54,439 bases of DNA from a virus: positions 1-54,439 of the IMG/VR virus record IMGVR_UViG_3300025674_000054; one strand, given 5' to 3'. The notes beneath the pieces are model-generated. The model was not told where the DNA came from. It worked only from the letters and a program-made list of their open reading frames with translations, and made no database searches. Below are positions 6,145 through 54,079 of the stretch, in pieces; position 1 is the stretch's first letter; each line of letters begins with the position of its first letter. The translations under genes and the position numbers were made by a program.

Positions 6145-6229
6145 ACCTTGGTGGCGGAATTGGTAGACGCGCCGGACTTAAAATCCTGTGGGCTGAAAGC
6201 TCGTGTGGGTTCGATTCCCACCCAAGGTA
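6145..6229 (+). tRNA. tRNA-Leu (anticodon UAA)
   Basis: An 85-nt class II tRNA. The acceptor stem is ACCTTGG (6145-6151) with CCAAGGT (6222-6228) and discriminator A6229. The D arm is GCGGAATTGGTAGACGC, the anticodon loop CTTAAAA, the variable arm is long, and the T arm is GTGGG-TTCGATT-CCCAC. CCA is not encoded. The anticodon stem CCGGA/TCCTG has one C-T mismatch. A phage copy would support UUA codons, frequent in this AT-rich genome. Confidence 0.95.
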
Positions 6230-6252
6230 CATATGTATAATTAAACGTTATT

Positions 6253-32300: not shown

Positions 32301-35300
32301 GTGGTACAGATGGTACTTCTGGAACAAGTGGAACTTCAGGTTCATCAGGAACATCTGGTTCTTCAGGAACTTCAGGAACAAACGGAACAGATGGTACATC
32401 TGGTTCTAGTGGTAATTCTGGAACATCAGGTTCAAGTGGTACTAGCGGATCATCAGGAGATAGTGGTACAAGTGGTTCTTCAGGAACTTCAGGTACAGAC
32501 GGAACCTCAGGTTCAAGCGGTACAAGTGGTACAGATGGTACTTCAGGAAGTTCAGGTACGAGTGGGACCAGTGGAACTTCAGGTTCTAGTGGAACTAGTG
32601 GAACTTCAGGAACAAGTGGATCTAGTGGTACAAGTGGAACATCTGGAACTAGTGGTTCATCAGGAACAAGTGGTACAGATGGTACTTCAGGAAGTTCAGG
32701 TACTTCGGGTACAAGTGGAACTTCAGGTAGTTCAGGAACAAGCGGTCAAGATGGAACTTCAGGTTCATCAGGAACTTCTGGAACATCTGGTACATCTGGA
32801 ACAAGTGGATCTTCAGGAACTTCAGACAAATATAGAACAACTTCAACTACTTCGTTTACCTTAGGTAATAGTGGTACTTTAACAGTTGATGTTGGTTTAG
32901 CATATACACCTGCACAATCTATTATTATTGTTTATGATGTAGATAATTTCCAAGAGTGTGAAGTTATAACTTATAATGATGCAACAGGTGCTTTAGCATT
33001 TGATACCCCTACAAGAACAGTAGGTTCAGGTACATACACTTCTTGGACAGTTAATTTAGATGGTGCTTCAGGAGGAGATGGTTCTTCAGGTACAAGTGGA
33101 TCTTCTGGTACATCAGGTACTAGTGGTACAAGTGGTTCAAGTGGAACTAGTGGCTCAAGTGGTACTTCAGGTACATCTGGAACAAGTGGCTCTTCGGGAA
33201 CTTCAGGAACAAGTGGCTCATCAGGAACAAGTGGAACAAGTGGAAGTTCAGGTGAATCTGGTACAAGTGGAACTTCAGGTACTTCAGGTACATCAGGTAC
33301 TAGTGGTTCATCAGGTACAAGTGGATCTTCAGGAGTATCTGGTACATCAGGTTCAAGTGGTACAAGTGGTACAGATGGTACTTCGGGTACAGACGGAACT
33401 TCAGGATCAAGTGGAACTAGTGGAACTTCAGGAACAAGTGGTTCATCTGGAACTTCTGGTACTAGTGGAACATCAGGTTCAAGTGGTACAAGTGGTACAG
33501 ATGGTACTTCAGGAAGTTCAGGCACTTCAGGCACATCAGGAACTTCAGGTTCAAGTGGTACATCAGGTACTTCAGGAACAAGCGGTTCATCTGGTGCAAG
33601 TGGTCCAATAGGCCCTTATGAATATAATATTCCAGGAGACGAAGATTCAGGTATCCATCCTGTAAGTGGTTCAAATACTGCTGCAGGTTGTTGGTCAACT
33701 ATTGCTGGTGGTGAAAATAATTATGTTGGTCTTGGGGGTACAAAATACCACTTTATAGGAGGTGGTTGTGATAATACGGTAGGAACTTGTGCTGCAGGTC
33801 AAGTTATTGTTGGAGGATATTGTAACTATTCACAAGGTAGTGTTTCTGCTAATAAATCTGATTGGAACTTTATAGGAGCTGGTATTGAAAACTGTAATAT
33901 TGGTGGTGTAGCTGCTATTGTAGCTGGTAGAAATAATAAAATAGAAGGAACAGGCTTAGGAGCAGCTTATACGGGTGCATCTGGTAGTTTTATTGGAGCT
34001 GGTGCTAATAACTGCATTATTGCTGCATGTTGTTCTACAATTGTAGGAGGAAAATCAAACGTTAACTGTGGAGATCATAGTTTTATAGGAAGTGGACTTG
34101 AAAATAGTATTTCTAATAATGTTAGTGGAGGACCTCATGTTTTAGTAGGTGGTAGCTGTAATAAACTAGTTTCTTATGCAACAGCCTTTTTAGGAGGTGG
34201 ATCTAATAATACAATTGAAGTATCAGCAAATCAAACATCAGGTAACGTTTTAGTAGGTGGTAACAGTAATAAAATAACTGGTAGTTGCCAAGCCTACATG
34301 TTTATTGGGGGTGGTGCAAGTAATGTAATTTCAGGTAGTGATTCTGTATGTTATAGTAGTATTGTAGGTGGTCGTGGAAATATTCTAAAAGAAACTGAAA
34401 GATCCTTTATTGGAGGAGGTCAAGAAAATACAAGTTCTGCAGATTATACTTTTATAGGAGGTGGTTATCAAAACCGTGTTTTAGGAATATGTAGTACTAT
34501 AGTAGGAGGAAGAAATAATATAATAACTAGTGGTTGTAACTTTATAGGAGGTGGTCTTATTAACTGTATTTGTACAAGTACAACATCAGTAATTGTTGGT
34601 GGGATATATAATGAAATTCAAGGCTCACATTCTGGTGGATTTGTTGGAAGTGGTAATTGTAATACTATTTTAGGTTCTACAAATTCAGGACATGCAATTG
34701 TTACTGGTACATGCAACCGTGTTAGTAACCAAAACACTGGTGGGGGACATAATTTCATAGGAACTGGATGTCATAACCTTGCTTCAGGTTGTGCTGATAT
34801 TATTGTAGGAGGTTTCCATAATACAGCTTCTGCTAATTTTGCCTTTATAGCAGGTGGATGTGATAACTGTGTTACTCACCAACACTCTGTTATTCTAGGA
34901 TCAGAAATAACTTCAGTTTCAGATTGTACAACACACGTAAACCAACTTAATATTGGTACAGTTTCTACAGGTACAGAAAATGACGTACTAATCATTGCGT
35001 CAGATGGTACTGTTAAAAAGAAAACAGCAGCAGCAACTTCAGGTACATCAGGTACAAGTGGCTCAAGTGGAACTTCAGGTACTTCAGGTTCTTCAGGAAC
35101 AGGTGGTACTTCAGGTTCTTCAGGTAATAGTGGAACATCTGGTTCTTCAGGTACAAGTGGCACTAGCGGTACTAGTGGTACAAGCGGAAGTTCAGGTAAT
35201 TCAGGAACAAGCGGTTCTTCAGGTACATCAGGTACATCAGGAACAGATGGTACTAGTGGTTCAAGTGGTACTAGCGGAACAAGTGGTACATCAGGTTCAA

Positions 35301-38300
35301 GTGGTACAAGTGGTACAGATGGTACTTCAGGAAGTTCAGGCACTTCAGGTACATCTGGAACTTCAGGAACAGATGGCACTTCAGGTTCAAGTGGTACAAG
35401 TGGTTCTTCTGGAACTTCAGGATCAAGTGGTACAAGTGGAACTTCTGGATCAAGTGGTACAAGTGGTACAAGTGGCACTTCGGGAACATCAGGTTCAAGT
35501 GGTACAAGTGGTACATCAGGAACTAGTGGTTCAAGTGGATCATCAGACAAATATGCAACTACATCAGGAACTTCGTTTACATTAGGTAATAGCGGAACTA
35601 TAACTGTAGAAGCAGGTTTAGCATATACCCCGGCACAATCTATTATTATTGTATATGATACATCAAACTTCCAAGAGTGTGAAGTAATAACATATAACGA
35701 TTCTACAGGTGTTTTAGAATTTGATTCACCAACTAGAACAGTTGGTAGTGGAACATATTCAGTTTGGACTGTAAACCTAGATGGTGCTTCAGGTGGAGAC
35801 GGTAGCTCAGGTACAAGTGGTACTTCAGGTACATCTGGTTCTTCAGGAACAAGTGGAACTTCAGGAACAAGTGGTTCAAGTGGAACATCTGGTACATCAG
35901 GAACTAGTGGTTCTTCAGGAACAAGTGGCACTTCAGGAACTAGTGGTTCAAGTGGATCATCTGGTACATCAGGAACATCTGGTACTAGTGGTTCAAGTGG
36001 AGATTCAGGAACAAGTGGTTCAAGTGGAACATCTGGTACATCAGGAACAGATGGTACTAGTGGTTCAAGTGGTACTAGCGGAACAAGTGGTTCAAGTGGA
36101 ACATCTGGTACATCAGGAACTAGTGGTTCTTCAGGTAATAGTGGAACAAGCGGTTCTTCAGGTACTTCAGGAACAGATGGTACAAGTGGTACTTCTGGAT
36201 CTTCTGGAAATTCTGGTACATCAGGTTCAAGTGGTACTAGTGGTACTGATGGAACAAGTGGTACATCTGGAACTTCAGGAACAGATGGTACTTCAGGTTC
36301 AAGTGGTACAAGTGGAACAAGTGGAAGCTCAGGTACTTCAGGAACAAGTGGAACATCAGGAACCTCAGGTAGTAGTGGTAATTCAGGAACCAGTGGTTCA
36401 AGTGGAACTAGTGGTACAAATGGTACAAGTGGTACATCAGGTACTTCTGGTACAAGTGGTTCATCTGGTGCAAGTGGTCCAATAGGTCCTTATGAATATA
36501 ATACACCAGCATCAACAACTTCAGGTATTCAACCTGTAAGTGGTTCAAATACAGCTTCGGGTTGTATGTCAAATATTGGAGGAGGAGAAAATAATACTTC
36601 TGGGGGAGCTTGTTCAGTAATAGGAGGAGGAAGACAGAATGTAAATTGTTCAAACCTTAGTTTCGTAGGTGGTGGAGCACGCCATACTCTTGGAAGCGAC
36701 GTAACCCAGGATGTTTATAGCGTAATTGTAGGTGGTCTTTGTAATTGTGCTTTTGATTTTTACAACTTTATTGGTGGTGGTAATAAAAACTTTATCTCTT
36801 CTAGTGTAGGTGAAACTGGAACTGCAAATGTTGTAGTTGGAGGACAATGTAACCGTATTGGAGGTGCGTATAGTTTTATAGGAGGTGGTATTTGTAATTT
36901 CCTTACTGGTTCACGTGGTATTATTGTTGGGGGTTCAACTAACAAAAGTGTTTGTTTTGCTAATGATGATTTTGTTATAGTTGGAGGTTTTAGTAATGAA
37001 AACTGTGCAGATTATACTTTTATAGGGGGTGGTTGTTGCAATATAGCAAATCATAATCATGCTTTTATTCTTGGATCAGATATAACTTCAGTTTCAGCTT
37101 GTACAACACACGTAAACCAACTTAATATAGGCACTGTTAATACAGGTACAGAAAATGATGTTCTTATTATAGCATCAGATGGTACTGTTAAAAAGAAAAC
37201 AGCAGCAGCAAGCTCAGGTTCTTCTGGTACATCAGGTACAAGTGGCACTTCAGGTACAAGCGGTACTTCAGGTACATCTGGTTCTTCAGGAAACAGTGGT
37301 ACTTCAGGTTCATCGGGCACTAGTGGAACTTCAGGAACTAGTGGAACAAGTGGTTCATCAGGAAACAGTGGTACTAGCGGATCTTCAGGTACATCAGGAA
37401 CTAGCGGTACATCAGGTACTTCAGGTTCAAGTGGTACTAGTGGTACAAGCGGAAGTTCAGGCACAAGTGGTACTTCAGGAACATCAGGTACTTCAGGTAC
37501 AAGTGGTTCAAGTGGAACTTCAGGAACTTCAGGATCAAGTGGTACATCAGACAAATATAGAACAACATCAACTACTTCGTTTACTTTAGGTAACAGTGGA
37601 ACAATAACTGTAGAAACAGGATTAGCATACTCACCTGCACAATCCATTATTATTGTTTATGACGTTGATAATTTCCAAGAATGTGAGGTAACAACATACA
37701 ATAGTGGAACAGGTGCCCTTTCATTTGATAACCCAACAAGAACTGAAGGATCAGGAACATATACAAGTTGGACAGTTAACTTAGATGGTGCTTCAGGTGG
37801 AGACGGTAGCTCAGGAACTTCTGGTACTAGTGGATCATCAGGTACATCTGGTACAAGCGGAACTAGTGGTACAAATGGAACAAGTGGTTCATCTGGTACT
37901 TCTGGTACTAGTGGATCATCAGGTACATCTGGTACAAGTGGAACTAGTGGAACTAGTGGTACTTCTGGATCTTCTGGAAATTCTGGTACTTCAGGATCTT
38001 CAGGAACAAGTGGTACAAGCGGTACTTCAGGAACAAGTGGTTCTTCAGGAAACAGTGGAACAAGCGGTTCAAGTGGAACATCTGGTACAAATGGAACAGA
38101 TGGTACTAGCGGTTCAAGTGGTACAAGTGGTACAAGCGGAAGCTCAGGTACTTCAGGTACTAGTGGATCATCAGGTACTTCTGGAACAAGTGGAACTTCA
38201 GGTACGTCAGGAACAAGCGGTACAAGTGGATCTTCAGGAGTATCTGGAACATCAGGTTCATCTGGTACAAGCGGAACTAGTGGTACAAATGGAACAAGTG

Positions 38301-41300
38301 GTTCTTCAGGTGTATCAGGTACATCTGGTTCAAGTGGAACAAGTGGTACATCAGGTACAAGTGGAACTTCAGGAACTTCAGGTACATCAGGTTCAAGTGG
38401 TACTTCTGGTACTTCTGGTTCAAGTGGAACTAGTGGCACAAGCGGAACTTCAGGTACATCAGGTACAAGCGGAACAAGCGGTTCTTCAGGAAATAGTGGA
38501 ACTTCAGGTTCAAGTGGTACTTCAGGATCTTCAGGAAACAGTGGTACAAGTGGATCAAGTGGAACTTCGGGAACCAGTGGCACATCAGGTACATCAGGTA
38601 CAAGTGGTACTTCTGGAGCAGCTACTATTAATAACAATGCTGATCATAGAGTAATAACTGGAGATAACACAGCTGGAGTTTTAAATGCTGAAAGTTGTTT
38701 TACTTTTGGCCCTTCATATAGAGTTACAATAGGACAAGGCCATACTAATAGTAATTCAACTTGGGCAGCAGTTCTTAGTGGATGTGGTAACCAAGTTTGT
38801 ATGCCTGCTGCTGTAATTGGTGGTGGATTAGATAACTGTATTCAAAACCTAAGTGGTGCTGGATGTATTGATGTAATTGGAGGAGGACAAAATAATAAAA
38901 TATGTGGATGGAAATCAAATACAATTTCAGGTGGATGTAATAACACCATAGCAAATTATAATACTGGGACTTTCAACTATCAATTAGGTCATACAATTGG
39001 AGGAGGATATAACAATGATATATCAGGTTCAGGTGGAAATGAATTTGCCAGTACTATAGCTGGTGGTAATGATAACTGCATATTTGGATCAAGCACAGGG
39101 GCTATTGGAGGAGGAGCAGGTAATGATATTATTGGAGGTAGTGCTAATACTATTGCAGGAGGGTGTTTCAGCAGAATTATTGGTAGTGTTTATTATACAA
39201 CTATAGCAGGGGGAAATTGTAACTGTATTAGCGTTAGTTCAAACTATGCTTCTATTGGAGGTGGTACTTGTAACTGTATTATTTCTTCACACTTTGGAGC
39301 TATAGGAGGAGGTTATGATAATGAGCTTAATGGTGGTCAATGTGCTGTAATTGGAGGTGGGTATAATAACTGTATAAAATCTAATGAAGGGTTTATTGGA
39401 GGTGGTAGACTTAACTGTATTGTAAGTTCAGTTTGTTCTGTTATTGGAGGTGGTTATACTAACTGTATTAGTACTTACAGCTTTAGTACTATACTTGGTG
39501 GTTGTGATAATTTCGTTGGAGGTTGTTTATCTTTTATAGGTGGGGGTCATGGTAACAACATAACCCTTGCTTCATCAGGTACTGTTATAGCAGGAGGAAT
39601 TGGCAACACTGTAGATGGATGTATGACTAACACTATTGGAGGAGGTTGTCAGAATTGTATTGATGGGGAACAGTATGGAAGTCATAATACAATCCCAGGT
39701 GGTGCATTAAACTGTATAATAGGTAATTGTAGTGAAGCTTATAGTACTATAGGAGGAGGACTTTGCAATACTATATGTGTTGGTGATAGTAACGTTATAG
39801 CTGGTGGTAGACAAAACAAAACATCAGGAGAATGTTCCGTAATCGGTGGAGGTTATTTAAATACAGGTTCATGTAGTTTCTCATTTATAGGAGGTGGATG
39901 TAGTAACTTTAATGCAAGAGAATGTGCTACTTTAGTTGGTGGACATAATAACTGTATGAATGGTATTGCATCATTTATAGGTGGTGGTGACACTAACTGT
40001 GTTACTTACTGCTCAGCTTTCACTAATATAGTTGGTGGAGCTCATAACACAGCTTCGGATGCAGCTTGTTATTCATCTATAGTTGGTGGGTGTAAAAATA
40101 GTATTAATAGAGCTGACTACTCTGCTATAGTTGGAGGGTGTTTGAACTTTATTTCAGGTAGTAATGGAAATCTTGCTGATTTTAGTACAATAATTTCAGG
40201 TAAAGAAAACTTAGTTGGAGGATGTTATGCCGTAGCAGGTGGAGAATTTTCACAAGCATTAGGTAACCAAGCAATTGCTTATGGGTATGCAGTATCAGCC
40301 TCAGGTGGTGCTAGTGCGGCATTTGGAGCTTTATCAAAAGCAATAGGTGATAATTCTTTTGCAACTGGTAGAAGTGGAAGTGCTGGGGGTTGTGATTCAT
40401 TTGTAGGTGGGTTTGGTAACGATATTGATGCTGATGCTCCTCAAGCAGTTGCCTTTGGGTATGAAAATATAATTGCTTCAACTGGTGATAATTCAGTAGT
40501 ATTTGGTTCTTCTAACTGTATAGGTGGGGCGAATAACTTTGTACAAGGTACTAATAATGATTCATTTTGTGATCATAATGTTATAATAGGAGGATGTAAT
40601 CATAGAATTTCAAATGTTGGTGGTTCAACTAGAGCTACACTTAGTGCTATAATAGGAGGAATTAACAACTGTATAACTTGTGCAGATAGTAACTTCATTG
40701 GAGCTGGTGCAGGAAACTTAATCAATAGAGGATGTAATAGTATTATAGCTGGTGGTAATAACAAAATATGTATTGACACTCTAACCCAAGGTTATTCAGC
40801 AGTATTTGGAATTTGTAACGTAACAAATGGAGATGGTAGTTACTCATTCATGGCAGGAGGTTACGGTAATAACTTTGGAGCATATAGTGCAGTTATTGGA
40901 GTTGGATCAGTAGGAAGTAAAGGTGATGTTCAAATTGCTCTAGGTTGTGGTATTACTACTCCAACAGGTGCAACAGCAGCTAGAGGAGATTCTCAAATTG
41001 TTGTTGGTAAATTTAATGATTATACTACCAGTTGTATACATAGATTTGCTGTTGGTAATGGTACTTCCGATACATCCAGAACTACTAAATTTGCTGTAAT
41101 AGGAGGTGGTACATCTAATGGTCAGGTAGCAGTTAACTCTTCAAATGGATGTTCTAGTTATAATTTCTTTGTAAATGGTAGTGCAGCTAAACCATTTGGT
41201 GGAAGTTGGACAAACTCTTCAGATGAAAGATTAAAAACTAATATTCAAAACTATACTAAGAGTTTAAGTGATATTATACAAGTTCAACCAAGAACATTTG

Positions 41301-41548
41301 ATTATACTGGTGCAGCTAATCATCCGACAGGAAGTGGAATTGGTATCGTAGCCCAAGAAATACAAAGTATCTTCCCAGAAACAATTCATAACTTTTCAGC
41401 TAAACTAAATGAAAATGATGAAGAAGAAACTACAGATTTATTAGGTTTCCAACAAGATCCACTTTTATATGCTGCTATTAACTCAATAAAAGAATTAAAT
41501 ACTAAAATAGAACAACTAGAACAACGTATCCAGGAACTAGAAGGATAA
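29336..41548 (+). CDS. Giant tail fibre, 4070 aa, with Gly-Ser/Thr-Ser repeats and C-terminal S74 chaperone
   Basis: Residues 1-92 are the attachment part, including HVSQSVDAFTAQDAYDISIS shared with the previous protein. From residue 93 long collagen-like triplet tracts (G-S-S-G-T-S, with some G-T-D, G-N-S and G-E-D) alternate with six copies of a beta domain of about 82 residues (SIIIVYDVDNFQECEV, VGSGTYSTW), and with three IGGG beta-roll blocks at about 1422-1898, 2380-2623 and 3095-3955. The C terminus has S3962-D-E-R-L-K3967, GIVAQEIQSIFPE and a coiled coil, the S74 intramolecular chaperone that trimerises fibres and is auto-cleaved. It is probably the receptor-contact fibre. Confidence 0.85.
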   Translation: MAKQLENIFDPNVDEISQGFTINSWHVSQSVDAFTAQDAYDISISGSFNNTGSAGFSGSVFTPDLPDTTADFEVVVVDNTSKELKKTNLLNAGSSGTSGSSGTSGSSGTSGSSGTSGSSGTSGSSGNSGSSGTSGADGDRYATTSGTSETLGDGNQCITVETGLAYTAGQEMIMANSDTALQTALVVSYDSVTGILCYGAIILQIGSGTYSSWQVNLSGNVAGSSGTSGSSGTSGTSGSSGQQGDPGTSGSSGTSGSSGTSGSSGTSGSSGESDKYATTSGTSFTLGGNGTITVETDLAYTPAQSIIIVYDVNNFQECEVITYNSSTGELVFGSPTRTVGSGTYSTWTVNLDGASGGDGSSGTSGSSGTSGSSGTAGTSGSSGTSGTSGSSGVSGSSGSSGTSGSSGTSGSSGTSGSSGSSGTSGSSGNSGTSGSSGTSGSSGDSGTSGSSGTSGTSGTSGTSGTSGSSGTSGSSGTSGSSGTSGTDGTSGSSGTSGTSGSSGTSGTSGTSGTSGSSGTSGSSGEDGTSGSSGTSGSSGTSGTSGTSGSSGTSGTSGSSGTSGSSGSSGTSGTSGTSGSSGTSGTSGTSGTSGSSGTSGTSGSSGTSGTSGTSGTSGTSGSSGSSGTSGNSGTSGSSGNSGTSGSSGTSGSSGTSGTSGSSGTSGTSGTSGTSGSSGEDGTSGSSGTSGSSGTSDKYATTSGTSFTLGNSGTITVETGLAYTTAQSIIIVYDIDNFQECEVTSYNSATGELSFDSPTRTVGSGTYSTWEVNLDGASGGDGSSGTSGTSGTSGSSGTSGTSGTSGSSGTSGTSGSSGTSGTSGTSGSSGNSGTSGSSGTSGTSGTSGTSGTSGTSGSSGTSGTSGSSGTSGTSGTSGSSGNSGTSGSSGTSGSSGNSGTSGSSGTSGTSGTSGTSGSSGTSGSSGEDGTSGSSGTSGSSGTSGSSGTNGTSGTSGSSGTSGTSGSSGTSGTSGTSGSSGTSGTSGSSGTSGTDGTSGTSGTSGSSGTSGSSGTSGTNGTDGTSGSSGNSGTSGSSGTSGSSGDSGTSGSSGTSGTDGTSGSSGTSGTDGTSGSSGTSGTSGTSGSSGTSGTSGTSGSSGTSGTSGTSGSSGTSGTDGTSGSSGTSGTSGTSGSSGTSGQDGTSGSSGTSGTSGTSGTSGSSGTSDKYRTTSTTSFTLGNSGTLTVDVGLAYTPAQSIIIVYDVDNFQECEVITYNDATGALAFDTPTRTVGSGTYTSWTVNLDGASGGDGSSGTSGSSGTSGTSGTSGSSGTSGSSGTSGTSGTSGSSGTSGTSGSSGTSGTSGSSGESGTSGTSGTSGTSGTSGSSGTSGSSGVSGTSGSSGTSGTDGTSGTDGTSGSSGTSGTSGTSGSSGTSGTSGTSGSSGTSGTDGTSGSSGTSGTSGTSGSSGTSGTSGTSGSSGASGPIGPYEYNIPGDEDSGIHPVSGSNTAAGCWSTIAGGENNYVGLGGTKYHFIGGGCDNTVGTCAAGQVIVGGYCNYSQGSVSANKSDWNFIGAGIENCNIGGVAAIVAGRNNKIEGTGLGAAYTGASGSFIGAGANNCIIAACCSTIVGGKSNVNCGDHSFIGSGLENSISNNVSGGPHVLVGGSCNKLVSYATAFLGGGSNNTIEVSANQTSGNVLVGGNSNKITGSCQAYMFIGGGASNVISGSDSVCYSSIVGGRGNILKETERSFIGGGQENTSSADYTFIGGGYQNRVLGICSTIVGGRNNIITSGCNFIGGGLINCICTSTTSVIVGGIYNEIQGSHSGGFVGSGNCNTILGSTNSGHAIVTGTCNRVSNQNTGGGHNFIGTGCHNLASGCADIIVGGFHNTASANFAFIAGGCDNCVTHQHSVILGSEITSVSDCTTHVNQLNIGTVSTGTENDVLIIASDGTVKKKTAAATSGTSGTSGSSGTSGTSGSSGTGGTSGSSGNSGTSGSSGTSGTSGTSGTSGSSGNSGTSGSSGTSGTSGTDGTSGSSGTSGTSGTSGSSGTSGTDGTSGSSGTSGTSGTSGTDGTSGSSGTSGSSGTSGSSGTSGTSGSSGTSGTSGTSGTSGSSGTSGTSGTSGSSGSSDKYATTSGTSFTLGNSGTITVEAGLAYTPAQSIIIVYDTSNFQECEVITYNDSTGVLEFDSPTRTVGSGTYSVWTVNLDGASGGDGSSGTSGTSGTSGSSGTSGTSGTSGSSGTSGTSGTSGSSGTSGTSGTSGSSGSSGTSGTSGTSGSSGDSGTSGSSGTSGTSGTDGTSGSSGTSGTSGSSGTSGTSGTSGSSGNSGTSGSSGTSGTDGTSGTSGSSGNSGTSGSSGTSGTDGTSGTSGTSGTDGTSGSSGTSGTSGSSGTSGTSGTSGTSGSSGNSGTSGSSGTSGTNGTSGTSGTSGTSGSSGASGPIGPYEYNTPASTTSGIQPVSGSNTASGCMSNIGGGENNTSGGACSVIGGGRQNVNCSNLSFVGGGARHTLGSDVTQDVYSVIVGGLCNCAFDFYNFIGGGNKNFISSSVGETGTANVVVGGQCNRIGGAYSFIGGGICNFLTGSRGIIVGGSTNKSVCFANDDFVIVGGFSNENCADYTFIGGGCCNIANHNHAFILGSDITSVSACTTHVNQLNIGTVNTGTENDVLIIASDGTVKKKTAAASSGSSGTSGTSGTSGTSGTSGTSGSSGNSGTSGSSGTSGTSGTSGTSGSSGNSGTSGSSGTSGTSGTSGTSGSSGTSGTSGSSGTSGTSGTSGTSGTSGSSGTSGTSGSSGTSDKYRTTSTTSFTLGNSGTITVETGLAYSPAQSIIIVYDVDNFQECEVTTYNSGTGALSFDNPTRTEGSGTYTSWTVNLDGASGGDGSSGTSGTSGSSGTSGTSGTSGTNGTSGSSGTSGTSGSSGTSGTSGTSGTSGTSGSSGNSGTSGSSGTSGTSGTSGTSGSSGNSGTSGSSGTSGTNGTDGTSGSSGTSGTSGSSGTSGTSGSSGTSGTSGTSGTSGTSGTSGSSGVSGTSGSSGTSGTSGTNGTSGSSGVSGTSGSSGTSGTSGTSGTSGTSGTSGSSGTSGTSGSSGTSGTSGTSGTSGTSGTSGSSGNSGTSGSSGTSGSSGNSGTSGSSGTSGTSGTSGTSGTSGTSGAATINNNADHRVITGDNTAGVLNAESCFTFGPSYRVTIGQGHTNSNSTWAAVLSGCGNQVCMPAAVIGGGLDNCIQNLSGAGCIDVIGGGQNNKICGWKSNTISGGCNNTIANYNTGTFNYQLGHTIGGGYNNDISGSGGNEFASTIAGGNDNCIFGSSTGAIGGGAGNDIIGGSANTIAGGCFSRIIGSVYYTTIAGGNCNCISVSSNYASIGGGTCNCIISSHFGAIGGGYDNELNGGQCAVIGGGYNNCIKSNEGFIGGGRLNCIVSSVCSVIGGGYTNCISTYSFSTILGGCDNFVGGCLSFIGGGHGNNITLASSGTVIAGGIGNTVDGCMTNTIGGGCQNCIDGEQYGSHNTIPGGALNCIIGNCSEAYSTIGGGLCNTICVGDSNVIAGGRQNKTSGECSVIGGGYLNTGSCSFSFIGGGCSNFNARECATLVGGHNNCMNGIASFIGGGDTNCVTYCSAFTNIVGGAHNTASDAACYSSIVGGCKNSINRADYSAIVGGCLNFISGSNGNLADFSTIISGKENLVGGCYAVAGGEFSQALGNQAIAYGYAVSASGGASAAFGALSKAIGDNSFATGRSGSAGGCDSFVGGFGNDIDADAPQAVAFGYENIIASTGDNSVVFGSSNCIGGANNFVQGTNNDSFCDHNVIIGGCNHRISNVGGSTRATLSAIIGGINNCITCADSNFIGAGAGNLINRGCNSIIAGGNNKICIDTLTQGYSAVFGICNVTNGDGSYSFMAGGYGNNFGAYSAVIGVGSVGSKGDVQIALGCGITTPTGATAARGDSQIVVGKFNDYTTSCIHRFAVGNGTSDTSRTTKFAVIGGGTSNGQVAVNSSNGCSSYNFFVNGSAAKPFGGSWTNSSDERLKTNIQNYTKSLSDIIQVQPRTFDYTGAANHPTGSGIGIVAQEIQSIFPETIHNFSAKLNENDEEETTDLLGFQQDPLLYAAINSIKELNTKIEQLEQRIQELEG
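29612..38617 (+). repeat. Imperfect 9/18-bp repeat tracts coding Gly-Ser/Thr-Ser triplets
   Basis: Near-identical units such as GGTACAAGTGGTTCTTCA fill several tracts here, separated by repeated domains. Synonymous codons vary (GGA/GGT, AGT/TCA/TCT, ACA/ACT), so the tract is not a clean microsatellite, but identical stretches recur often enough to allow unequal recombination and assembly errors. The lack of stops on the complement produces long false antisense frames. Confidence 0.9.
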
Positions 41549-46982: not shown

Positions 46983-47249
46983 ATGTCAATTTTAAGTAAA
47001 AAAATCAAAAATTTAAAAGAAGGAGATAAATTCATCTTTACCTATGGTGATAAAGATTATGAATTTTATTGTCATTCATATTCAGAAAATTTTGGTCCTA
47101 GTTTCTCAATCCATGAAGCTGGTAGTTTTTTAGGTAGATCAATGAATGTTGATAAAGTTACTAAAAAGTATATCACATTATATGATTATAATTTATTTTC
47201 AGTTAGATCATCATTTAAAATTCCAATTAACTCAATAGAGATTAAGTAA
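46983..47249 (+). CDS. Small hypothetical protein, 88 aa
   Basis: Begins MSILSKKIKNLKEGDKF. I prefer this start over the in-frame ATG at 46962 because it has the AATAAAGGTTATG context seen at 3609, and because 46962 would leave almost no leader after the promoter. The product is beta-rich with many aromatic residues (DYEFYCHSYSENFGPSFS), compatible with a small barrel. No family is recognised. First gene of the 46983-49049 operon. Confidence 0.6.
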   Translation: MSILSKKIKNLKEGDKFIFTYGDKDYEFYCHSYSENFGPSFSIHEAGSFLGRSMNVDKVTKKYITLYDYNLFSVRSSFKIPINSIEIK

Positions 47250-47716
47250 TGAAAAAAATAGTTTATCTTCACGGTTTAGAAAGCAAAGCAGGTGGTCCTA
47301 AGGTTGATTTCCTTGCTACTAAAGGTATGGTTTATGCCCCTGAGATGGATTATGAAACATTAGATTTAGAAGAGTTAATGGGTAAAATTGGTAAACCTGA
47401 TATAATTATAGGTTCTAGTATGGGTGGTTATATTGCCGATATATTAGGATCTCAATTGGGAGTAGATGTTTTACTGTTTAACCCTGCTTTGCATAGTAGA
47501 AGTATTGAGTTTGATTTTGATGGTGGAACTGGTTATGGAAATAAAAATTATAAACGTACTATTATTTTAGGTACTGAAGATGATGTTATAAATCCTGAAG
47601 TGACCAAAAAACTATGGCCAGTTTATGATAATTCTGCTAAATTTGAGGAAATAGAGGGCATGGGTCATAGAACGTCACTTGATGTGTTTGTTAATATGTA
47701 TAATAAACATGCTTAA
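47249..47716 (+). CDS. YqiA-like alpha/beta-hydrolase (esterase)
   Basis: A 155-residue small hydrolase of the UPF0227/YqiA type: YLHGLESKAGGPK at the N terminus, the nucleophile elbow G-S-S57-M-G, LLFNPAL, the acid D112 in LGTEDDVINPE and H140 in EGMGHR. The triad is complete, so esterase activity is expected. It is shorter than YqiA (about 190) because the lid region is reduced. Its start overlaps the preceding stop by one base. The substrate is unknown; it lacks the L-x-E leader of the genes that follow. Confidence 0.8.
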   Translation: MKKIVYLHGLESKAGGPKVDFLATKGMVYAPEMDYETLDLEELMGKIGKPDIIIGSSMGGYIADILGSQLGVDVLLFNPALHSRSIEFDFDGGTGYGNKNYKRTIILGTEDDVINPEVTKKLWPVYDNSAKFEEIEGMGHRTSLDVFVNMYNKHA

Positions 47717-47718
47717 TT

Positions 47719-48252
47719 ATGATCAAGTTAGTAGATCTTCTTAATGAAATAGATATACCTAAGAATGAATGGAAACCTATTTCTAAAGATGAATTAAAGG
47801 GTATTGAAAAACAAATTCTAGATTTAATTAATACAGCTTATGGACCTATTGGTGGTCATCCTAACTATAAATCTGTAGATGATTTAGTAGGTTCTGAATA
47901 TCAAGTAATCGATTTAGATAGTGATCCTGAATTAGATGCTGTTACAGTAACTAAACAAAGATCAGGAGGTACAAAACATGTTGGAATAGGTCATGATAAT
48001 TCAAGCCCAGCTAAAAGAGCAACTATAACTCGTACAATTGATAAATTAGATGAACCTGGAAATTATATAGAAGCATCAGGTGCTATTGAAGGTATCTTAC
48101 GTAAAGCAGGAGTAGTACAAGTTACAGATGAAGAAACTATTCGTAAAGCTTTAAAAGGCAAAGAAATAGAAATGCATAGTGATGGTTCTTACGATAGAAT
48201 CTTAGGTGGTAAAAAATATAAAAAAACAATGTTTGGAATTCCAAGAGTATGA
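47719..48252 (+). CDS. Phage protein with a 10-residue LxE leader, candidate capsid-targeted protein
   Basis: A 177-residue protein whose first ten residues MIKLVDLLNE (then I) parallel the leader of the next gene and the 10-residue capsid-targeting sequences of T4 internal proteins. The mature part has ILDLINTAYGPIGGHP, LDSDPELDAVTVTKQ, KHVGIGHDNS and a basic end (DRILGGKKYKKTMFGIPR). I remember similar proteins annotated as hypothetical or acetyltransferase-like in other phages but see no acetyl-CoA motif. Overlaps the next gene by 4 bp. Confidence 0.5.
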   Translation: MIKLVDLLNEIDIPKNEWKPISKDELKGIEKQILDLINTAYGPIGGHPNYKSVDDLVGSEYQVIDLDSDPELDAVTVTKQRSGGTKHVGIGHDNSSPAKRATITRTIDKLDEPGNYIEASGAIEGILRKAGVVQVTDEETIRKALKGKEIEMHSDGSYDRILGGKKYKKTMFGIPRV

Positions 48253-49049
48253 TAAGTTTAATGCAATTATTAAAAGAAGCACAAGGCGAACCTAAAGCCA
48301 TTATATTAGCAGGAGCACCTGGAGCAGGTAAGGGGTTTATCTTACGTGGTCTAGATTTAGGAGGTTTAAAAGTATTAAATGTAGATAATATTTTTATTGA
48401 AAAATTAAAACAGGCTAATGTCAGTTTGGATTTAAAAAATGCTACACCTGAAGAAAGAAGTGAGCAAGCAAAACAAATGGCGGCAGCTAATAAAGAGTTT
48501 AAAGGTGAATTACAAAATGTAATAGATGGTAAACAATCATTTATATTAGATGGAACGGCAGCTTCAGTTAAAACAACAACTAAATTAAAGGATGAATTAG
48601 AAGAAGCGGGATATGATGTATTTATGCTTTATGTTTATACTGATTTAGAACGTTCACTAATGCAAAATCAAGATAGATTTGAAAAATCAGGTGGTGAAGA
48701 TAGAAGTTTAGCACCTGCTATTGTAATGCGTACTTGGCTATCAGTAACTAAAAATTGGGCACCTTATAAAGAAATGTTTGGTAATAATTTTGTTTCCGTA
48801 GCTAATACATTAGAAGATGAAAAATTAAAAGATGTTGCTGATGTAATTAAAAAATATTTAGACCCATTTAAACCAACAGGAACTAAACCTAAAACAGCAG
48901 CTCAACAAGCTAGAAGTGATAAACAAAAGGCTGAAACAAATGCCCAAATACAAGCTTTATTAAGTGATGATGGAGCTAAAGAAATTATAGATGGTTCTGT
49001 ATCTAAAGAAGAAGCACAATCTAAAATTAAACAATTTTTATCTAAATGA
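48249..49049 (+). CDS. P-loop kinase / zeta-toxin-like protein with LxE leader
   Basis: A 266-residue protein. Leader MISLMQLLKE10|A11, then a Walker A at 22-29 (GAPGAGKG, with Gly in place of the last Ser/Thr), a strand ending in D46 (LKVLNVDNIF) and SFILDGTAAS near 97-106, as in AAA_33 or zeta-toxin type kinases. The C-terminal 60 residues are a charged helical tail. The substrate could be a nucleotide or sugar nucleotide; zeta toxins phosphorylate UDP-N-acetylglucosamine. The leader suggests packaging into the head. Overlap of 4 bp on both sides. Confidence 0.65.
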   Translation: MISLMQLLKEAQGEPKAIILAGAPGAGKGFILRGLDLGGLKVLNVDNIFIEKLKQANVSLDLKNATPEERSEQAKQMAAANKEFKGELQNVIDGKQSFILDGTAASVKTTTKLKDELEEAGYDVFMLYVYTDLERSLMQNQDRFEKSGGEDRSLAPAIVMRTWLSVTKNWAPYKEMFGNNFVSVANTLEDEKLKDVADVIKKYLDPFKPTGTKPKTAAQQARSDKQKAETNAQIQALLSDDGAKEIIDGSVSKEEAQSKIKQFLSK

Positions 49050-51940
49050 GTTTAGTAAATGAGTTAGTAAAAGGGTTATTACCTGAAGAAGAAAAAAAGG
49101 TAGTAGCAGTATATGGAGGTGGTTTTAAACCACCAACTAAAGGTCATTTTGAAGTTGTAAAACAAGCAATTAAAGAAAATCCTAATATTGATGAGTTTGT
49201 TATTAACATAGGTGGTAAAGCTAGAGATGGTGTTACACCTGAAGAATCAATTCAAATTTGGGATATCTACAAACAATACCTCCCAGTTTCAGCTAACATT
49301 AATATCCAATATAGTAGTACTCCTCCTATAAAGGCAACTTATGATTATGCTAAAAACCACCCTGATGAAGAAGTATTATTTATTTTAGGTGCTAGAGAAG
49401 GTAATGAAGATGATTTTAAAGATATATCTTCTAGAACTAAATCTTTAGATAAATATCCTAATTTAAATTTACGTACTATAGTAACCAAAGGAGGTGTATC
49501 TGGTACAGCGGCTAGAAATGCTGGTAAAATAAGCAAAGAAAAAATAAGACCATTCCTACCAGATGAATTAAAAGACGAAGAAGTAGAAGAAATTTACCAA
49601 ATGGTATCTGATAAAGTAACTGAAAATATAAGTGAAAGTAAACAGGTTGGTACTTTATATCATTATACATCAGCTAATGGATTAAAGGGTATACTTCAAT
49701 CTAATAGTATTAAAGCTTCTGAGGAATACTATTTGGGTAATGATTTATATTTTGTATCTTTTACTAGAAATAAAAATTTCCATAAAAAAGGTTCAGCATT
49801 TGATGTTTCAATGGATTATAGAATTGCATTAGATGGTAATAAATTATCTAATAAATATAAAATTACACCTTTTGCTTATATACCTGGATGGAATTACAAA
49901 GACAATTGGGAATATGATTGGTTAGATGACGAGCCAGAAAGTGTGGTAAGGGATTTTTTAAATGCTTCTGGAGATTATGATGAACAAGAAGAAAGAATAA
50001 ATTTTAAAAAACCAGGTAGTTCAATAACTAATATAAAAGATTATATTTTAAAAATAGATAAGGTATCTGAATTAACTGAAGGTAGAAAAAAGAAAAAAGA
50101 TCCTAAAAAAGGTACAGGTAAAAAACCAGAAGGTTCAGGACGTAGATTATACACAGATGAGGATCCAAAAGATACAGTTGGTATTAAATTTAGTACTAGA
50201 CAAGATATAGTAGATACTTTAAATAAAAAATCATTTAAAGCTAAATCACATGCTAGACAATCTCAAATTATTAATTTAATTCATCAAAGAACTAGAGCAG
50301 CTTATAACAGAGCTAAAGATCCTAAAGTTAAAAAACGTTTAAAAACAGCTTTAGACTATATTACTAAACGTAAAGAAGCATCTAAAAAGAAAACACAACG
50401 TTTGAAAAATTTAAAAGAAAATGCTACCTATTCTCAACACATAGACATAATTGAAAAAATAGCTGAATTAACTAACTATATGATAGAAAGTGGTTTAAAT
50501 ATTGAACCACTACCTAGTATGGAATTTATAGATGGGGATACAGAAAATGCTAAAGATTTTTTCGGTAAAACAGCATATTACGATCCCAATAAACAACATA
50601 TTGTTTTATATACTGAAGGTAGACATCCTAAGGATATATTACGTTCATATGCACATGAAATGATACATCATATCCAGTATTTAGAAGATAGATTACATAA
50701 CATCACTACTACAAATACTAATGAAGATGAAGATTTAGATGCTATTGAAAAAGAAGCATATGTAAGAGGTAATATGACATTTAGAAATTGGACAGATTCA
50801 ATTACAGGTGATAAGTTAGAAGAAAATTTAAACAATCCTAATTTAACAAAGCAATTAAAAAATTATATAGAGGATTACACAGATATTAATATAAATTTAT
50901 TAAAAGACCTACTTAAAATAAAAAATAAATATCCTAAACAATTAGACCCTAGAGTTGGAGGTAATAAATTTGGATATAGAGGTACTACATTTAGTAAAGA
51001 GTTTATAGATAAATTAAAAGTGAAATCTAAGGTTAATGGAGTAACAGAATATGAAGTTCCTCCTAATTTAAAAATTAATTCAAGAGGAAAAAGAGGTTTT
51101 TTAAGTTTTTCAACAGATGAAGAAGTAGCAAAGGGATTTGGACACTATTCAGGATATGTAGATTATAAAAAATCAGATGATAGAGTAGGGGGATATGTAA
51201 AAGTATCTTTAGATAATCCTAACTTTATTATCCATCCAGATTATATGGGAGAACTTTCTAAAGATATGGAATATTCTAAAGATAATGAAAAAGAAACTTT
51301 ATATGTAGGTAATTCTTTTACACCCGAAAGTATATTTGTTATTGATAAAGATATATATGATACTTTAACAGAAGGTAAGAAAAAAGATCCATTTGGTTTA
51401 TTAGCATATGCTCAAGAATTAGGTCGTTTAAGAGAGGAAGAAAGCGAGTATAAAGTTTATTTAGATATGGATGGTGTATTAGCTGATTTTGATCAACGTT
51501 TTAGAGATATATCTGGAATGGAACCTAAAGATTTTGAAAATAAATATGGTACAAAAGAATTTTGGAATCTTATAGACGAAGAAAATAAAATTAAATTTTG
51601 GGTTGGTATCCCCGTAATGTCAGGTGCTGCTGATTTAGTAGATGCTGTTAAAGATTATAATTATGAATTATTAACATCACCATCATCTAAAAAGCAATCT
51701 TATTTAGGAAAAATACTTTGGGTAAAAAATCATACAGGTGACGTGTTTCCCTCAAAACCTCGTATTAACTTTAAGAAAGCAAAAGAGAAACACCTTGTTA
51801 AACCACAGCTAGCAAAAACAGATATTCTAATAGATGATAGAGAAGATACTATTGGAAGGTGGAATGCATCAGGTGGTACTGGTATAGTGTATAAAAGTAT
51901 AGGTCAGGTATTAGGTGATCTAAAAAAATTAGGTTTATGA
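49046..51940 (+). CDS. Multi-enzyme polyprotein: nucleotidyltransferase, H-Y-T ART-like, basic module, metallopeptidase-like, ADP-ribosyltransferase-like, HAD nucleotidase
   Basis: A 964-residue protein. Domains in order: 15-197 cytidylyltransferase/NMNAT-type (GGFKPPTKGHFEVV; GVSGTAAR); 198-345 a TLYHYTSANGLKGIL ART-like fold; 346-458 a Lys/Arg-rich module (GSGRRLYTDEDP, KSHARQSQIINLIHQR); 459-635 metallopeptidase-like (SYAHEMIHHIQ, AIEKEAYVRGN); 636-776 ADP-ribosyltransferase-like with Y-R645-G, F-L-S-F-S-T and E748-K-E750; 798-964 HAD 5'-nucleotidase (VYLDMDGVLADF, DILIDDRED). (L/I)-x-E sites at 14, 197, 345, 458, 776 and 797 fall at the linkers. It may be cleaved by the prohead protease and delivered with the DNA. 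Confidence 0.7.
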   Translation: MSLVNELVKGLLPEEEKKVVAVYGGGFKPPTKGHFEVVKQAIKENPNIDEFVINIGGKARDGVTPEESIQIWDIYKQYLPVSANINIQYSSTPPIKATYDYAKNHPDEEVLFILGAREGNEDDFKDISSRTKSLDKYPNLNLRTIVTKGGVSGTAARNAGKISKEKIRPFLPDELKDEEVEEIYQMVSDKVTENISESKQVGTLYHYTSANGLKGILQSNSIKASEEYYLGNDLYFVSFTRNKNFHKKGSAFDVSMDYRIALDGNKLSNKYKITPFAYIPGWNYKDNWEYDWLDDEPESVVRDFLNASGDYDEQEERINFKKPGSSITNIKDYILKIDKVSELTEGRKKKKDPKKGTGKKPEGSGRRLYTDEDPKDTVGIKFSTRQDIVDTLNKKSFKAKSHARQSQIINLIHQRTRAAYNRAKDPKVKKRLKTALDYITKRKEASKKKTQRLKNLKENATYSQHIDIIEKIAELTNYMIESGLNIEPLPSMEFIDGDTENAKDFFGKTAYYDPNKQHIVLYTEGRHPKDILRSYAHEMIHHIQYLEDRLHNITTTNTNEDEDLDAIEKEAYVRGNMTFRNWTDSITGDKLEENLNNPNLTKQLKNYIEDYTDININLLKDLLKIKNKYPKQLDPRVGGNKFGYRGTTFSKEFIDKLKVKSKVNGVTEYEVPPNLKINSRGKRGFLSFSTDEEVAKGFGHYSGYVDYKKSDDRVGGYVKVSLDNPNFIIHPDYMGELSKDMEYSKDNEKETLYVGNSFTPESIFVIDKDIYDTLTEGKKKDPFGLLAYAQELGRLREEESEYKVYLDMDGVLADFDQRFRDISGMEPKDFENKYGTKEFWNLIDEENKIKFWVGIPVMSGAADLVDAVKDYNYELLTSPSSKKQSYLGKILWVKNHTGDVFPSKPRINFKKAKEKHLVKPQLAKTDILIDDREDTIGRWNASGGTGIVYKSIGQVLGDLKKLGL

Positions 51941-52512
51941 GCAAAGATAATGTCTTAAAAAAGCAATTTCAAGAAAAAGATGTACAACGTTTACGTAATT
52001 TAATAACTGGTAAACATGGTGCTAAAACACGTTCTAGTGTTGGTTTCTCTAAAGCAGATGAATTTTATGCCGAAGGTGACATTTGGGAAGCAGATGGCCG
52101 TACTTGGACTATCAAAGATGGTATTAAACAAAATATAACAAAGCTAGATAAAGCTAAAAAAGCACATATTATGCCTTTACTTTGCCCTAAATGTAGCAAA
52201 GTAATGAAAAAACGAAACGATAAACCTGCTTACAATTTACATAAAATGTGTTTTGATTGTGTTGCTAAAATGGAACATCAAATTAGATTAGATGGTAAAT
52301 GGGAAGATTATACTAATAAGCTTCATAATCAGCAAATTGACCATAATTTAGAAGAATTTAAAGCTTTTATAGAAGAAAAATTGGTAGAATCAAATAATTC
52401 ATTTGTATCAGAAGATGGAGATGTTGAAAAGTGGGTAGGTAAACTAGATAAAGAAAAAGTAAAAGAATATGTAGATTCAGTAGTTGAATATGCTAATTCA
52501 CTTAAAAAGTAG
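51937..52512 (+). CDS. Phage zinc-ribbon protein, unknown function
   Basis: A 191-residue protein. The N-terminal half is basic (KKQFQEKDVQRLRNLITGKH) with WEADGRTWTIKDGIKQNIT near 53-71. A zinc ribbon follows at about 83-114: C-P-K-C and C-F-D-C. The C-terminal part is a helical, acidic segment. It looks DNA- or protein-binding. It lies between two candidate packaged proteins, overlapping the polyprotein gene by 4 bp, but has no LxE leader. Confidence 0.6.
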   Translation: MSKDNVLKKQFQEKDVQRLRNLITGKHGAKTRSSVGFSKADEFYAEGDIWEADGRTWTIKDGIKQNITKLDKAKKAHIMPLLCPKCSKVMKKRNDKPAYNLHKMCFDCVAKMEHQIRLDGKWEDYTNKLHNQQIDHNLEEFKAFIEEKLVESNNSFVSEDGDVEKWVGKLDKEKVKEYVDSVVEYANSLKK

Positions 52513-52519
52513 CTTTATA

Positions 52520-52532
52520 TATTTATAATAAA
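52520..52532 (+). promoter_or_regulatory. Late-type motif TATTTATAATAAA
   Basis: Exact 13-mer, 9 nt before the start at 52542. Confidence 0.6.
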
Positions 52533-52541
52533 CACTCTATT

Positions 52542-53807
52542 ATGAAAGATAATTTTGACCTTTATTCATGGAATAAAAATCGCTATTTGGGGAAAGCTCA
52601 TGTAGCTAAAGAAACTAAAGACGAAAATTTCGATTTACATGAATGGAATAAAAAACGTTATTTAGGTGAATTGGATATTAATACCACTGGTGGTGATACT
52701 GATGTTGATAACCTAAATATAGATAAAGGTGGAGATGATGCTAAAATGGGAGCGGAATTAGAATCAGATGCTAATGTAGTAGGAGAAAACCAATCTCATT
52801 TAGAGTTTTTACAAAAGTATTTATCAAAAATGCACCCTGAATTAAGGTGGGAAATTAGTTTTGGAGAAAGGCTTGATGCATACGGCTCAGCCCAAGACTT
52901 AGCAAATTTTGGAAATAAATATCATGGTAAAAAATTTGGTGACTATGAAGTATTTCATGTAGATGATGATGATAGATTAGATATTGTTCGTGTTATTAAA
53001 TCTTCTAAATTAAGAGAAAATAAATCTTACCATACAGAAGAACATGCTAGATTTTTAACAGCATTGAGAGACTCAGGTGTTACTAATATGTTTGGTGCTG
53101 GTCCTTATTTAGCAGCAGAATTTGATTTAGACCAAAGAGAAGCTAGAAAAATATTAGCTAGTTGGATGGAATCATTTTCAGAAAATTTAAATGAAAGTTA
53201 TATGTACAAAGGATATAAAGACAAACATTTTGATATTTGTCCAACAGCTGAGGCTTTAAGAGATAGATTATTAGCAGGTGAATTTAAAGATACTAGTTGG
53301 GCTACAGGAACTGATTTTGAGAAAGAAGTAGGTGAGTGGCTTTACCAACATGATATTTTATTTGGTACTGAAAAACAAATATTAAAAGATAAAGAAGGGG
53401 ATGAAAATGATTTAGAAGTAGCAGAACAAGCTGTAGATAGAATTGTAAATTTATCTCGTGATTTAGGTATTCCTGCTAGTGAAATAAATGCTTATATTCC
53501 TGCTCATATTAAAAAAATTAAGGATATAGTTGAATATAGTTCATTAACTGAAAGCATTAAAGAAACAATTCGTTTTATCAAAGAAAACAACCCAGAATTT
53601 ACCAATGAAGAGATTAAAGCTGAATTAAAAGAAATTAAAGCATTAGGTGAGCAATTAGATGAATCTATGTGTAAAAGAGGAAAAAATTATATGGCTGCTA
53701 GAAAAAGAGCAGGCGAAAAATCCTCAGCTTACTTATCAGGTCGCGGTGTTAAAGTATGTAAAGGTCAGATTAAAGGAGCTGATGGTAAAAAGAAAAAATC
53801 ATATTAA
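52542..53807 (+). CDS. Modular virion-type protein with N-terminal repeat and LxE-linked modules
   Basis: A 421-residue protein. Residues 4-17 and 29-42 are a direct repeat (NFDLYSWNKNRYLG and NFDLHEWNKKRYLG). Modules follow, separated by L-x-E sites at 159 (KLRE|N), 218 (NLNE|S), 337 (SLTE|S) and 374 (QLDE|S). Residues 165-212 contain FLTALRDSGVTNMFGAGPYL and ILASWMESF. The C-terminal module (375-421) is basic with CKRGKNYMAARKRAGEKSS and VKVCKG. No catalytic motif is recognised. A late-type motif upstream and the LxE spacing suggest a packaged, processed protein. Confidence 0.55.
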   Translation: MKDNFDLYSWNKNRYLGKAHVAKETKDENFDLHEWNKKRYLGELDINTTGGDTDVDNLNIDKGGDDAKMGAELESDANVVGENQSHLEFLQKYLSKMHPELRWEISFGERLDAYGSAQDLANFGNKYHGKKFGDYEVFHVDDDDRLDIVRVIKSSKLRENKSYHTEEHARFLTALRDSGVTNMFGAGPYLAAEFDLDQREARKILASWMESFSENLNESYMYKGYKDKHFDICPTAEALRDRLLAGEFKDTSWATGTDFEKEVGEWLYQHDILFGTEKQILKDKEGDENDLEVAEQAVDRIVNLSRDLGIPASEINAYIPAHIKKIKDIVEYSSLTESIKETIRFIKENNPEFTNEEIKAELKEIKALGEQLDESMCKRGKNYMAARKRAGEKSSAYLSGRGVKVCKGQIKGADGKKKKSY

Positions 53808-54079
53808 TGATTCCAAATTACGAAGAAATATTACGTGAATCTTTAAAAGATTGGTTTGGCAAAGAAGATTGGGTCCGAATTAACACTTCAGGTAATATAG
53901 CTGGTAAATGTGGTACAATGAAAAAAGGCAAAGCTACAACAAGATGTTTGCCTAGAAAAAAAGCACAATCACTTACAAAGGCAGAGCGTAAAGCAACTGT
54001 AGCTAAGAAAGTACGTGGTAGTAAAAAAGGCAAACAGTTTGTGAAAAACACAGATAAAGCCGAATTTAAAAAGAAATAA
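53807..54079 (+). CDS. Small basic protein with LxE leader, internal-protein candidate
   Basis: A 90-residue protein starting MIPNYEEILRE11|S12, then DWFGKEDWVRINTSGNIAGK, CGTMKKGKATTRCLPRKKAQ and a very Lys/Arg-rich end. Small and basic after an acidic leader, it has the profile of T4 internal proteins IPI-III. The CGTM...RCLPRKKAQSLTKAERKA block is one I remember as a recurring module in phage proteins of unknown function. TAATG overlap with the preceding gene. Confidence 0.6.
   Translation: MIPNYEEILRESLKDWFGKEDWVRINTSGNIAGKCGTMKKGKATTRCLPRKKAQSLTKAERKATVAKKVRGSKKGKQFVKNTDKAEFKKK

Follow-up and report, generated by a model that had tools for sequence, protein, structure and literature searches.

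The 54,439-base linear virus record IMGVR_UViG_3300025674_000054, analysed whole and here called the window, carries T4-like genes for a primase and a baseplate wedge, a weak late-sigma-like match and, near its end, a plus-strand gene cluster (47719–54079) dominated by a gene for a 964-residue (964-aa) protein (49046–51940). We consider this protein very likely to be a modular cargo polyprotein that has one capsid-targeting leader, is cut by the prohead protease and is injected. It begins with the leader MSLVNELVKGLLPE (residues 1–14, 49046–49087; end LLPE/, a slash marking here and below a putative cut), followed by module 1, a NadD/PPAT-like (HIGH-superfamily) nucleotidyltransferase (residues 15–193, 49088–49624; end VTE193/NISE197/); module 2, an ADP-ribosyltransferase (ART) of the Tox-ART-HYD1 type (198–345, 49637–50080; end LTE345/); module 3, basic and helical, GRKKKKDPKKGTGKKP (346–458, 50081–50419; end LKE458/); module 4, metallopeptidase-like with an HExxH motif (AHEMIHH; 459–593, 50420–50824; end KLEE593/); module 5, rare and ART-like by motif only (594–776, 50825–51373; end LTE776/); an internal leader-like peptide (777–797, 51374–51436; end KDPFGLLAYAQELGRLRE/); and module 6, an NT5C-type 5'(3')-deoxyribonucleotidase of HAD fold (798–964, 51437–51940; phrog_2643, E=1.9e-24; PF06941).

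The same strand encodes, upstream, a 177-aa protein of unknown fold and without Pfam match (47719–48252), with the 10-residue capsid-targeting-type leader MIKLVDLLNE (47719–47748), and a 266-aa zeta-toxin-type P-loop kinase (48249–49049; PF06414, E=1.6e-18) with the leader MISLMQLLKE (48249–48278). Downstream are a 421-aa second modular cargo protein (52542–53807), with a tandem-duplicated leader and junctions near 159, 218, 337 and 374, and a 90-aa basic protein (53807–54079), in which the leader MIPNYEEILRE/ precedes an SLKDWF module. The leaders that the sequence-only reading described, including the LLPE start of the 964-aa protein, are all present, as are all the (L/I)-x-E sites it listed, which in the 964-aa protein are at 14, 197, 345, 458, 776 and 797 and in the 421-aa protein at 159, 218, 337 and 374. 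The 191-aa gene between the two modular proteins (51937–52512) was set aside as a cargo candidate, the leader being missing in the 22 distinct relatives shown. Immediately upstream of the cargo genes is a leaderless UPF0227/alpha-beta hydrolase gene (47249–47716, 155 aa), which only about 11 relatives have. PADLOC gave 0 matches.

Domains of the 964-aa protein were modelled with confidence by AlphaFold2, and between them the predicted local distance difference test (pLDDT) score dips sharply at residues 9–15, 454–460, 590–595 and 769–799, coinciding with sites 14, 458, 593, 776 and 797; residues 198–345 and 594–776 are poorly predicted in this model. Foldseek matched module 1 to NadD/PPAT adenylyltransferases (8aih, E=2.1e-6; PPAT 5o0a, TMt 0.80), and the fold search also returned HAD hydrolases, in keeping with the identity of the last domain. 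Module 2 passes PF15633 narrowly (25.8 bits vs a cut-off of 25), with 16 of 47 homologues matching at E <= 0.01, and its best fold matches when modelled alone (47 sequences, pLDDT 77) are KptA/Tpt1 ARTs, albeit weak (E=0.07). Catalytic motifs are conserved in the modules (HIGH-type TxGH and SGTxxR, HExxH, DxD and DD); in module 4, H537, E538 and H541 are invariant, and matches to PF14891/PF18818 are weak (PF18818, E=0.075). Residues 594–776 hold the motif YRG ... LSFST ... EKE, found only in the window and in loci L006/L114 and L113; they match no Pfam entry or other family, nor any PDB sequence convincingly, and their relatives are too few for a good model, so that their fold can be assigned only tentatively. 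The domain assignment of the sequence-only reading is thus partly supported: profile, motif or fold speaks for the NadD/PPAT-like, ART, HExxH metallopeptidase-like and NT5C modules, and 594–776 is ART-like by motif only.

The number of sites was rejected as evidence: the 964-aa protein has 12 (L/I)-x-E against 11.0 expected from composition, a chance level, and the case therefore rests on position, conservation and relatives. As to position, a leader site ending at residues 8–14 occurs in 4/6 cluster genes vs 3/38 other genes of the window (Fisher p = 0.003), and the five well-supported breakpoints defined by homology (193/197, 345, 458, 593 and 776) all lie at most 4 residues from a site (p ~1e-5). 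Conservation was read from an alignment of colinear relatives (A2), a first alignment of module fragments (A1) being left unused because fragments were misplaced in it. The junction sites are kept at 14 in 91% (20/22 aligned relatives), at 193 in 96%, at 345 in 83%, at 458 in 100% (29/29), at 776 in 79% and at 797 in 92% (24/26); figures for sites within domains are 32% at 44, 21% at 182, 38% at 470, 31% at 474 and 54% at 845. Two sites had earlier been put down to chance: I42-K-E (E44), conserved in only 9/28, is indeed of that kind, and L591-E-E (E593) is actually a junction, at which alignments to 24 relatives stop. VTE193, retained in 24/25 colinear relatives, is the general end of domain 1, with ISE197 as a second site four residues further on; the breakpoint ending module 1, at 199, is shared by 38 partners. 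V-x-E is thus to be counted as a junction motif too.

Scanning IMG/VR yielded 253 relatives, from which 79 loci were kept and 65 non-redundant polyproteins taken for breakpoint analysis. Among the relatives of the 964-aa protein the domains are recombined, reordered or split into genes of their own: L009, for example, has the order nucleotidyltransferase, basic module, metallopeptidase, ART, nucleotidase, and L061, L023, L028 and Flavobacterium phage immuto (gp87) encode the NT5C nucleotidase in a gene of its own, such free-standing genes having a start leader, for instance MANLFDLYKLIKE/, in place of the internal leader-like peptide. Recurrent alignment breakpoints have (L/I)-x-E within 8 residues at 179/349 starts and 192/351 ends, compared with 66 (sd 7) and 64 (sd 7) under a null in which breakpoints are displaced along their own proteins, and the commonest offset of the Glu is fixed, at +2 for starts and 0 for ends. 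When each of 186 distinct left/right junction types is counted once, [LIV]-x-E is found in 50%, vs 23–28% at random positions. The expectation that L-x-E would stay constant at linkers while its flanks vary thus held, both among the relatives first collected and in the held-out set described below. Modular proteins usually swap at linkers, and cleavage is here a prediction, so that these data could also be read as coming from a multidomain protein packaged in the head and injected whole, the [LIV]-x-E at its borders being flexible linkers or recombination hot spots. Linkers, however, need no fixed motif, and at the same breakpoints [LI]-x-D is underrepresented (0.48x), [LI]-x-K/N/Q is at or below expectation and x-x-E lacking L/I/V shows no enrichment; the motif is, moreover, common to borders and free-standing leaders, and relatives encode, downstream, a protease that cuts it. 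We regard injection of the whole chain as quite unlikely.

The individual modules give the same picture. [LIV]-x-E precedes module 4 in 54/54 distinct copies and in 17/17 mutually unrelated upstream contexts, the chance of finding it in a random 12-residue stretch being 15%, and it stands before module 3 in the 15/15 contexts listed (32/40 copies within the scored window, the rest just outside). In a held-out test, the ART module alone was used as query and gave 62 further loci, mostly on other contigs; there, [LIV]-x-E comes directly before the conserved ART start (KQVG) in 48/52 contexts. Most of these copies are short genes standing on their own, whose leaders include MIKLIDLLNE/A, MKKSELKQLIKEETHKILNE/G and MKRFKEFLNE/S, the last of which we take to be much like the T4 IPIII leader. 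A C-terminal site (KVSELTE/G, KVEDLKE/G) is seen in all 7 polyprotein copies listed, and free-standing ART genes stop short of it (L124 at KVADL, L120 at AVDKIK). The module lacks a preceding [LIV]-x-E in L174, L173 and L152, of which L174 comes from a 223-kb record (G024) with neither S77 protease nor gp23, a joint absence that speaks for processing by the prohead protease.

Similar results were obtained for the 421-aa and 90-aa proteins. The tandem-duplicated leader of the former, FDLYSWNKNRYLG followed by FDLHEWNKKRYLGE43/ (52542–52670), is a 44-nt repeat, 75% identical, at a spacing of 75. The leader site of the 421-aa protein is the LGE at 43, behind the duplication, and its breakpoints fall at 151/157, 217, 337 and 370/373. 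A single leader copy is present in the relatives L007 and L029; for a capsid-targeting leader, such doubling would be out of the ordinary. The last module of the 421-aa protein, CKRGK, has [LIV]xE ahead in 22/23 contexts and the SL(K/R)DWF module in 29/29, whether as a free-standing gene or in a fusion. Thus MDRIKDLVKE/KLCKKGEA and MTQDRITEIIRE/SLKDWF at gene starts correspond to ELGKQLNE/KLCKKGEA and KEEQIREVVKE/SLRDWF inside fusions, and since both modules look alike after a start leader or after another module, leader end and internal junction are the same element.

The leaders themselves share conserved positions. Among 34 unique leaders of the zeta-type kinase, 32 have L at residue 4, 32 have L/I at residue 7, 33 have L/I at residue 8 and 32 have E at residue 10, with residues 3, 5, 6 and 9 variable, and the form MIxLxx(L/I)LxE of the 177-aa protein is retained among the homologues listed. 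In T4 IPIII, residues 4 and 7 serve capsid targeting and residues 8 and 10 processing (PMC9026906); the putative cargo leaders match these determinants at all four positions. Across five relatives, a leader site is present in 48/95 open reading frames (ORFs) between polyprotein and terminase vs 14/75 tail and post-capsid ORFs (p = 1.3e-5), and a MDNFDLKKYLAE/G leader is found several times per genome. The M(D/N)NFDLKKYLAE/G leader occurs on several different genes per genome (L094, L098, L099, L101, L105), forming a paralogous leader family. A test of the leaders of all genes without family clustering was discarded, its signal being inflated; once families are clustered, a peak at residue 10 persists (4.9x), and a majority test for residues 8–18 gives a modest excess (36/169 vs 30/167 in a neighbouring control window). 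Among outgroup nucleotidase genes, leader-like starts are present in Melnitz (SINE/) and HTVC008M (LVQE/), with none in Cr30.

The processing invoked by the sequence-only reading calls for a gp21-type protease, and one is encoded by relatives: PF03420 (S77, T4 gp21) scores above cut-off in 12/20 related records (relatives only), namely immuto and 11/19 others, including all seven others longer than 66.2 kb, and S77 is likewise present in 12/15 records of the ART scan. The gene follows the polyprotein on the same strand, about 15–25 kb downstream, within a conserved order terminase, gp20, gp73, gp21, scaffold, gp23. The S77 proteases of these relatives keep the ELDHP and SSRG motifs, and the ends of the protease itself bear an invariant LxE21 and [LIV]xE172, whose LNE/GK and LTE/N resemble the polyprotein junctions. 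The propeptide of the major capsid protein appears to be removed after V-x-E (QLVVE/S), a predicted cut that agrees with V at some polyprotein junctions. In the 155-kb record G021, the gp23 match (L191) has one in-frame TAA inside, which may reflect recoding, an insertion or a sequence error. With protease and capsid genes in the relatives, the earlier proposal of a polyprotein of injected enzymes processed in the prohead gains support both from the gp21-type protease downstream and from L-x-E at linkers.

Two other fates for such a protein bear on these genes. An HExxH domain is conserved in nearly every polyprotein relative, and metallopeptidase-type domains have been proposed by Iyer et al. 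to cut polyvalent proteins into units (PMC5512222), so the 964-aa protein might be a polyvalent protein that processes itself, its L-x-E peptides being mere linkers. We find this unlikely, since [LIV]-x-E leaders also occur on genes free of peptidase (266-, 177- and 90-aa) and at junctions of the peptidase-free 421-aa protein, and since [LIV]-x-E is the same as the motif known for gp21 and as the predicted terminal sites of the S77 protease. Alternatively, the products could be prohead core (scaffold) components that, as with T4 gp22, gp67 and gp68, are fragmented and mostly expelled instead of acting as injected effectors, as gp21 cuts T4 core proteins into several fragments (PMC9026906) and several polyprotein modules are short and basic; scaffold duty, however, has no need of the conserved catalytic motifs, and immuto has a distinct scaffold-like gene (gp67), making this a very unlikely role.

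Several observations weigh against a polyprotein of prohead-processed, injected cargo. Cleavage, packaging, injection and enzyme roles in the host are what we infer from sequences, and the chance-level L-x-E count means that single unconserved sites may be uncut. Site 50, inside the domain 1 fold, is kept in 20/28 relatives (71%), and sites 593 and 197 fare worse in the multiple alignment (5/14 and 5/12), partly because the sequence that follows them differs. The breakpoint sets are not independent, relatives sharing ancestry. In L173 (G023), the ART is leaderless and motif-less although the record has an S77 protease; that protease may differ in specificity. Finally, no S77 protease is present in the 54-kb window, the record ending 2.5 kb past the polyprotein, before the position at which the gene is seen in relatives, which would account for its absence.

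Modules are exchanged at [LIV]-x-E, leaders and junctions interchange, and relatives carry the protease with T4-type head genes. In the cargo polyprotein that we favour, the N-terminal leader would dock the entire chain within the prohead core, where the gp21-type (S77) protease would cut after [L/I/V]-x-E at module borders and free about six small proteins (a NadD/PPAT-like nucleotidyltransferase, an ADP-ribosyltransferase, a basic module, a metallopeptidase-like protein, an ART-like protein and a deoxyribonucleotidase); these pieces, of about 110–185 residues, would stay with the DNA in the head and exit via the tail. The 177-, 266-, 421- and 90-aa neighbours would be cargo of the same kind, single or with fewer modules. 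Because every module has the same flanking cut site, modules could act as cassettes that swap, permute or stand free with a leader of their own, leaving processing undisturbed. Prohead-protease sites are probably the standard punctuation of exchangeable cassettes in this group of aquatic T4-like phages, effector modules being either leader-bearing genes or parts spliced into a one-leader polyprotein. The small fold of T4 IPI should pass the ~30 A portal channel (PMC9026906), an argument that the small predicted pieces fit. If this is true, a single tag would load many different enzymes into one head of a large T4-like phage in a fixed ratio, and the making of pieces small enough for tail exit would be explained. 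Leaders and junctions of the [LIV]-x-E type would then form a readable code from which the injected proteome of uncultivated phages could be predicted; the cargo predicted in this way is sizeable (48/95 leader-site ORFs) and, for the most part, unstudied, with anti-defence and host-takeover functions likely.

Capsid-targeting leaders with gp21 processing are known, as are shuffled polyvalent head proteins; of their union, in which prohead-protease sites border exchangeable enzyme modules, we found no description in the open-access literature. Like T4 internal proteins and Alt (PMC9026906), the system has leaders of 10–19 residues with the same determinant positions and (L/I)-x-E, an S77 protease (in relatives), a gp20/gp23 head and ADP-ribosyltransferase cargo, whose injection is presumed here. 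In T4, by contrast, each cargo protein is one functional unit cut at its ends, whereas here several enzyme modules share a chain with sites between them, P3 may also be V, and it is at the sites that modules are shuffled. The polyvalent proteins described by Iyer et al. (2017, PMC5512222) are likewise multidomain, shuffled, equipped with ART and zincin-like domains and probably head-packaged in phages, but their processing is ascribed to metallopeptidases, whereas the present set has a prohead-protease motif and is tied to T4-type heads. The inner-body/ejection proteins of phiKZ and SPN3US are head proteins matured by a prohead protease, sometimes at several sites, although the motif differs, L/I/V being needed at P3 here; in SPN3US, 13/14 mapped cuts remove N-terminal propeptides, the remaining one being the protease's own (PMC10052503). 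Immuto is a cultivated relative with the same locus (gp088/gp087) and with S77 and gp23 in one genome; the two genes are annotated only as nicotinamide mononucleotide (NMN) adenylyltransferase and 5'-nucleotidase, NT5C there being a separate gene with the leader MKKVMGNLADLLLEE. We found no immuto proteomics in the open-access literature.

Elsewhere in the window, giant proteins of 4070 aa and 2957 aa are encoded at 29336–41548 and 16549–25422, in which L-x-E is sparse (0.1 and 0.6 per 100 residues, respectively); the 2957-aa protein has no PHROG or Pfam match. A gene at 42870–43352 matches phrog_447 ('NAD synthetase') as well as homing-endonuclease PHROGs, the former label being probably wrong. 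Bases 1–880, a long stretch without an ORF of at least 60 aa, are apparently non-coding, and a tRNA-Leu(taa) is located at 6145–6230.

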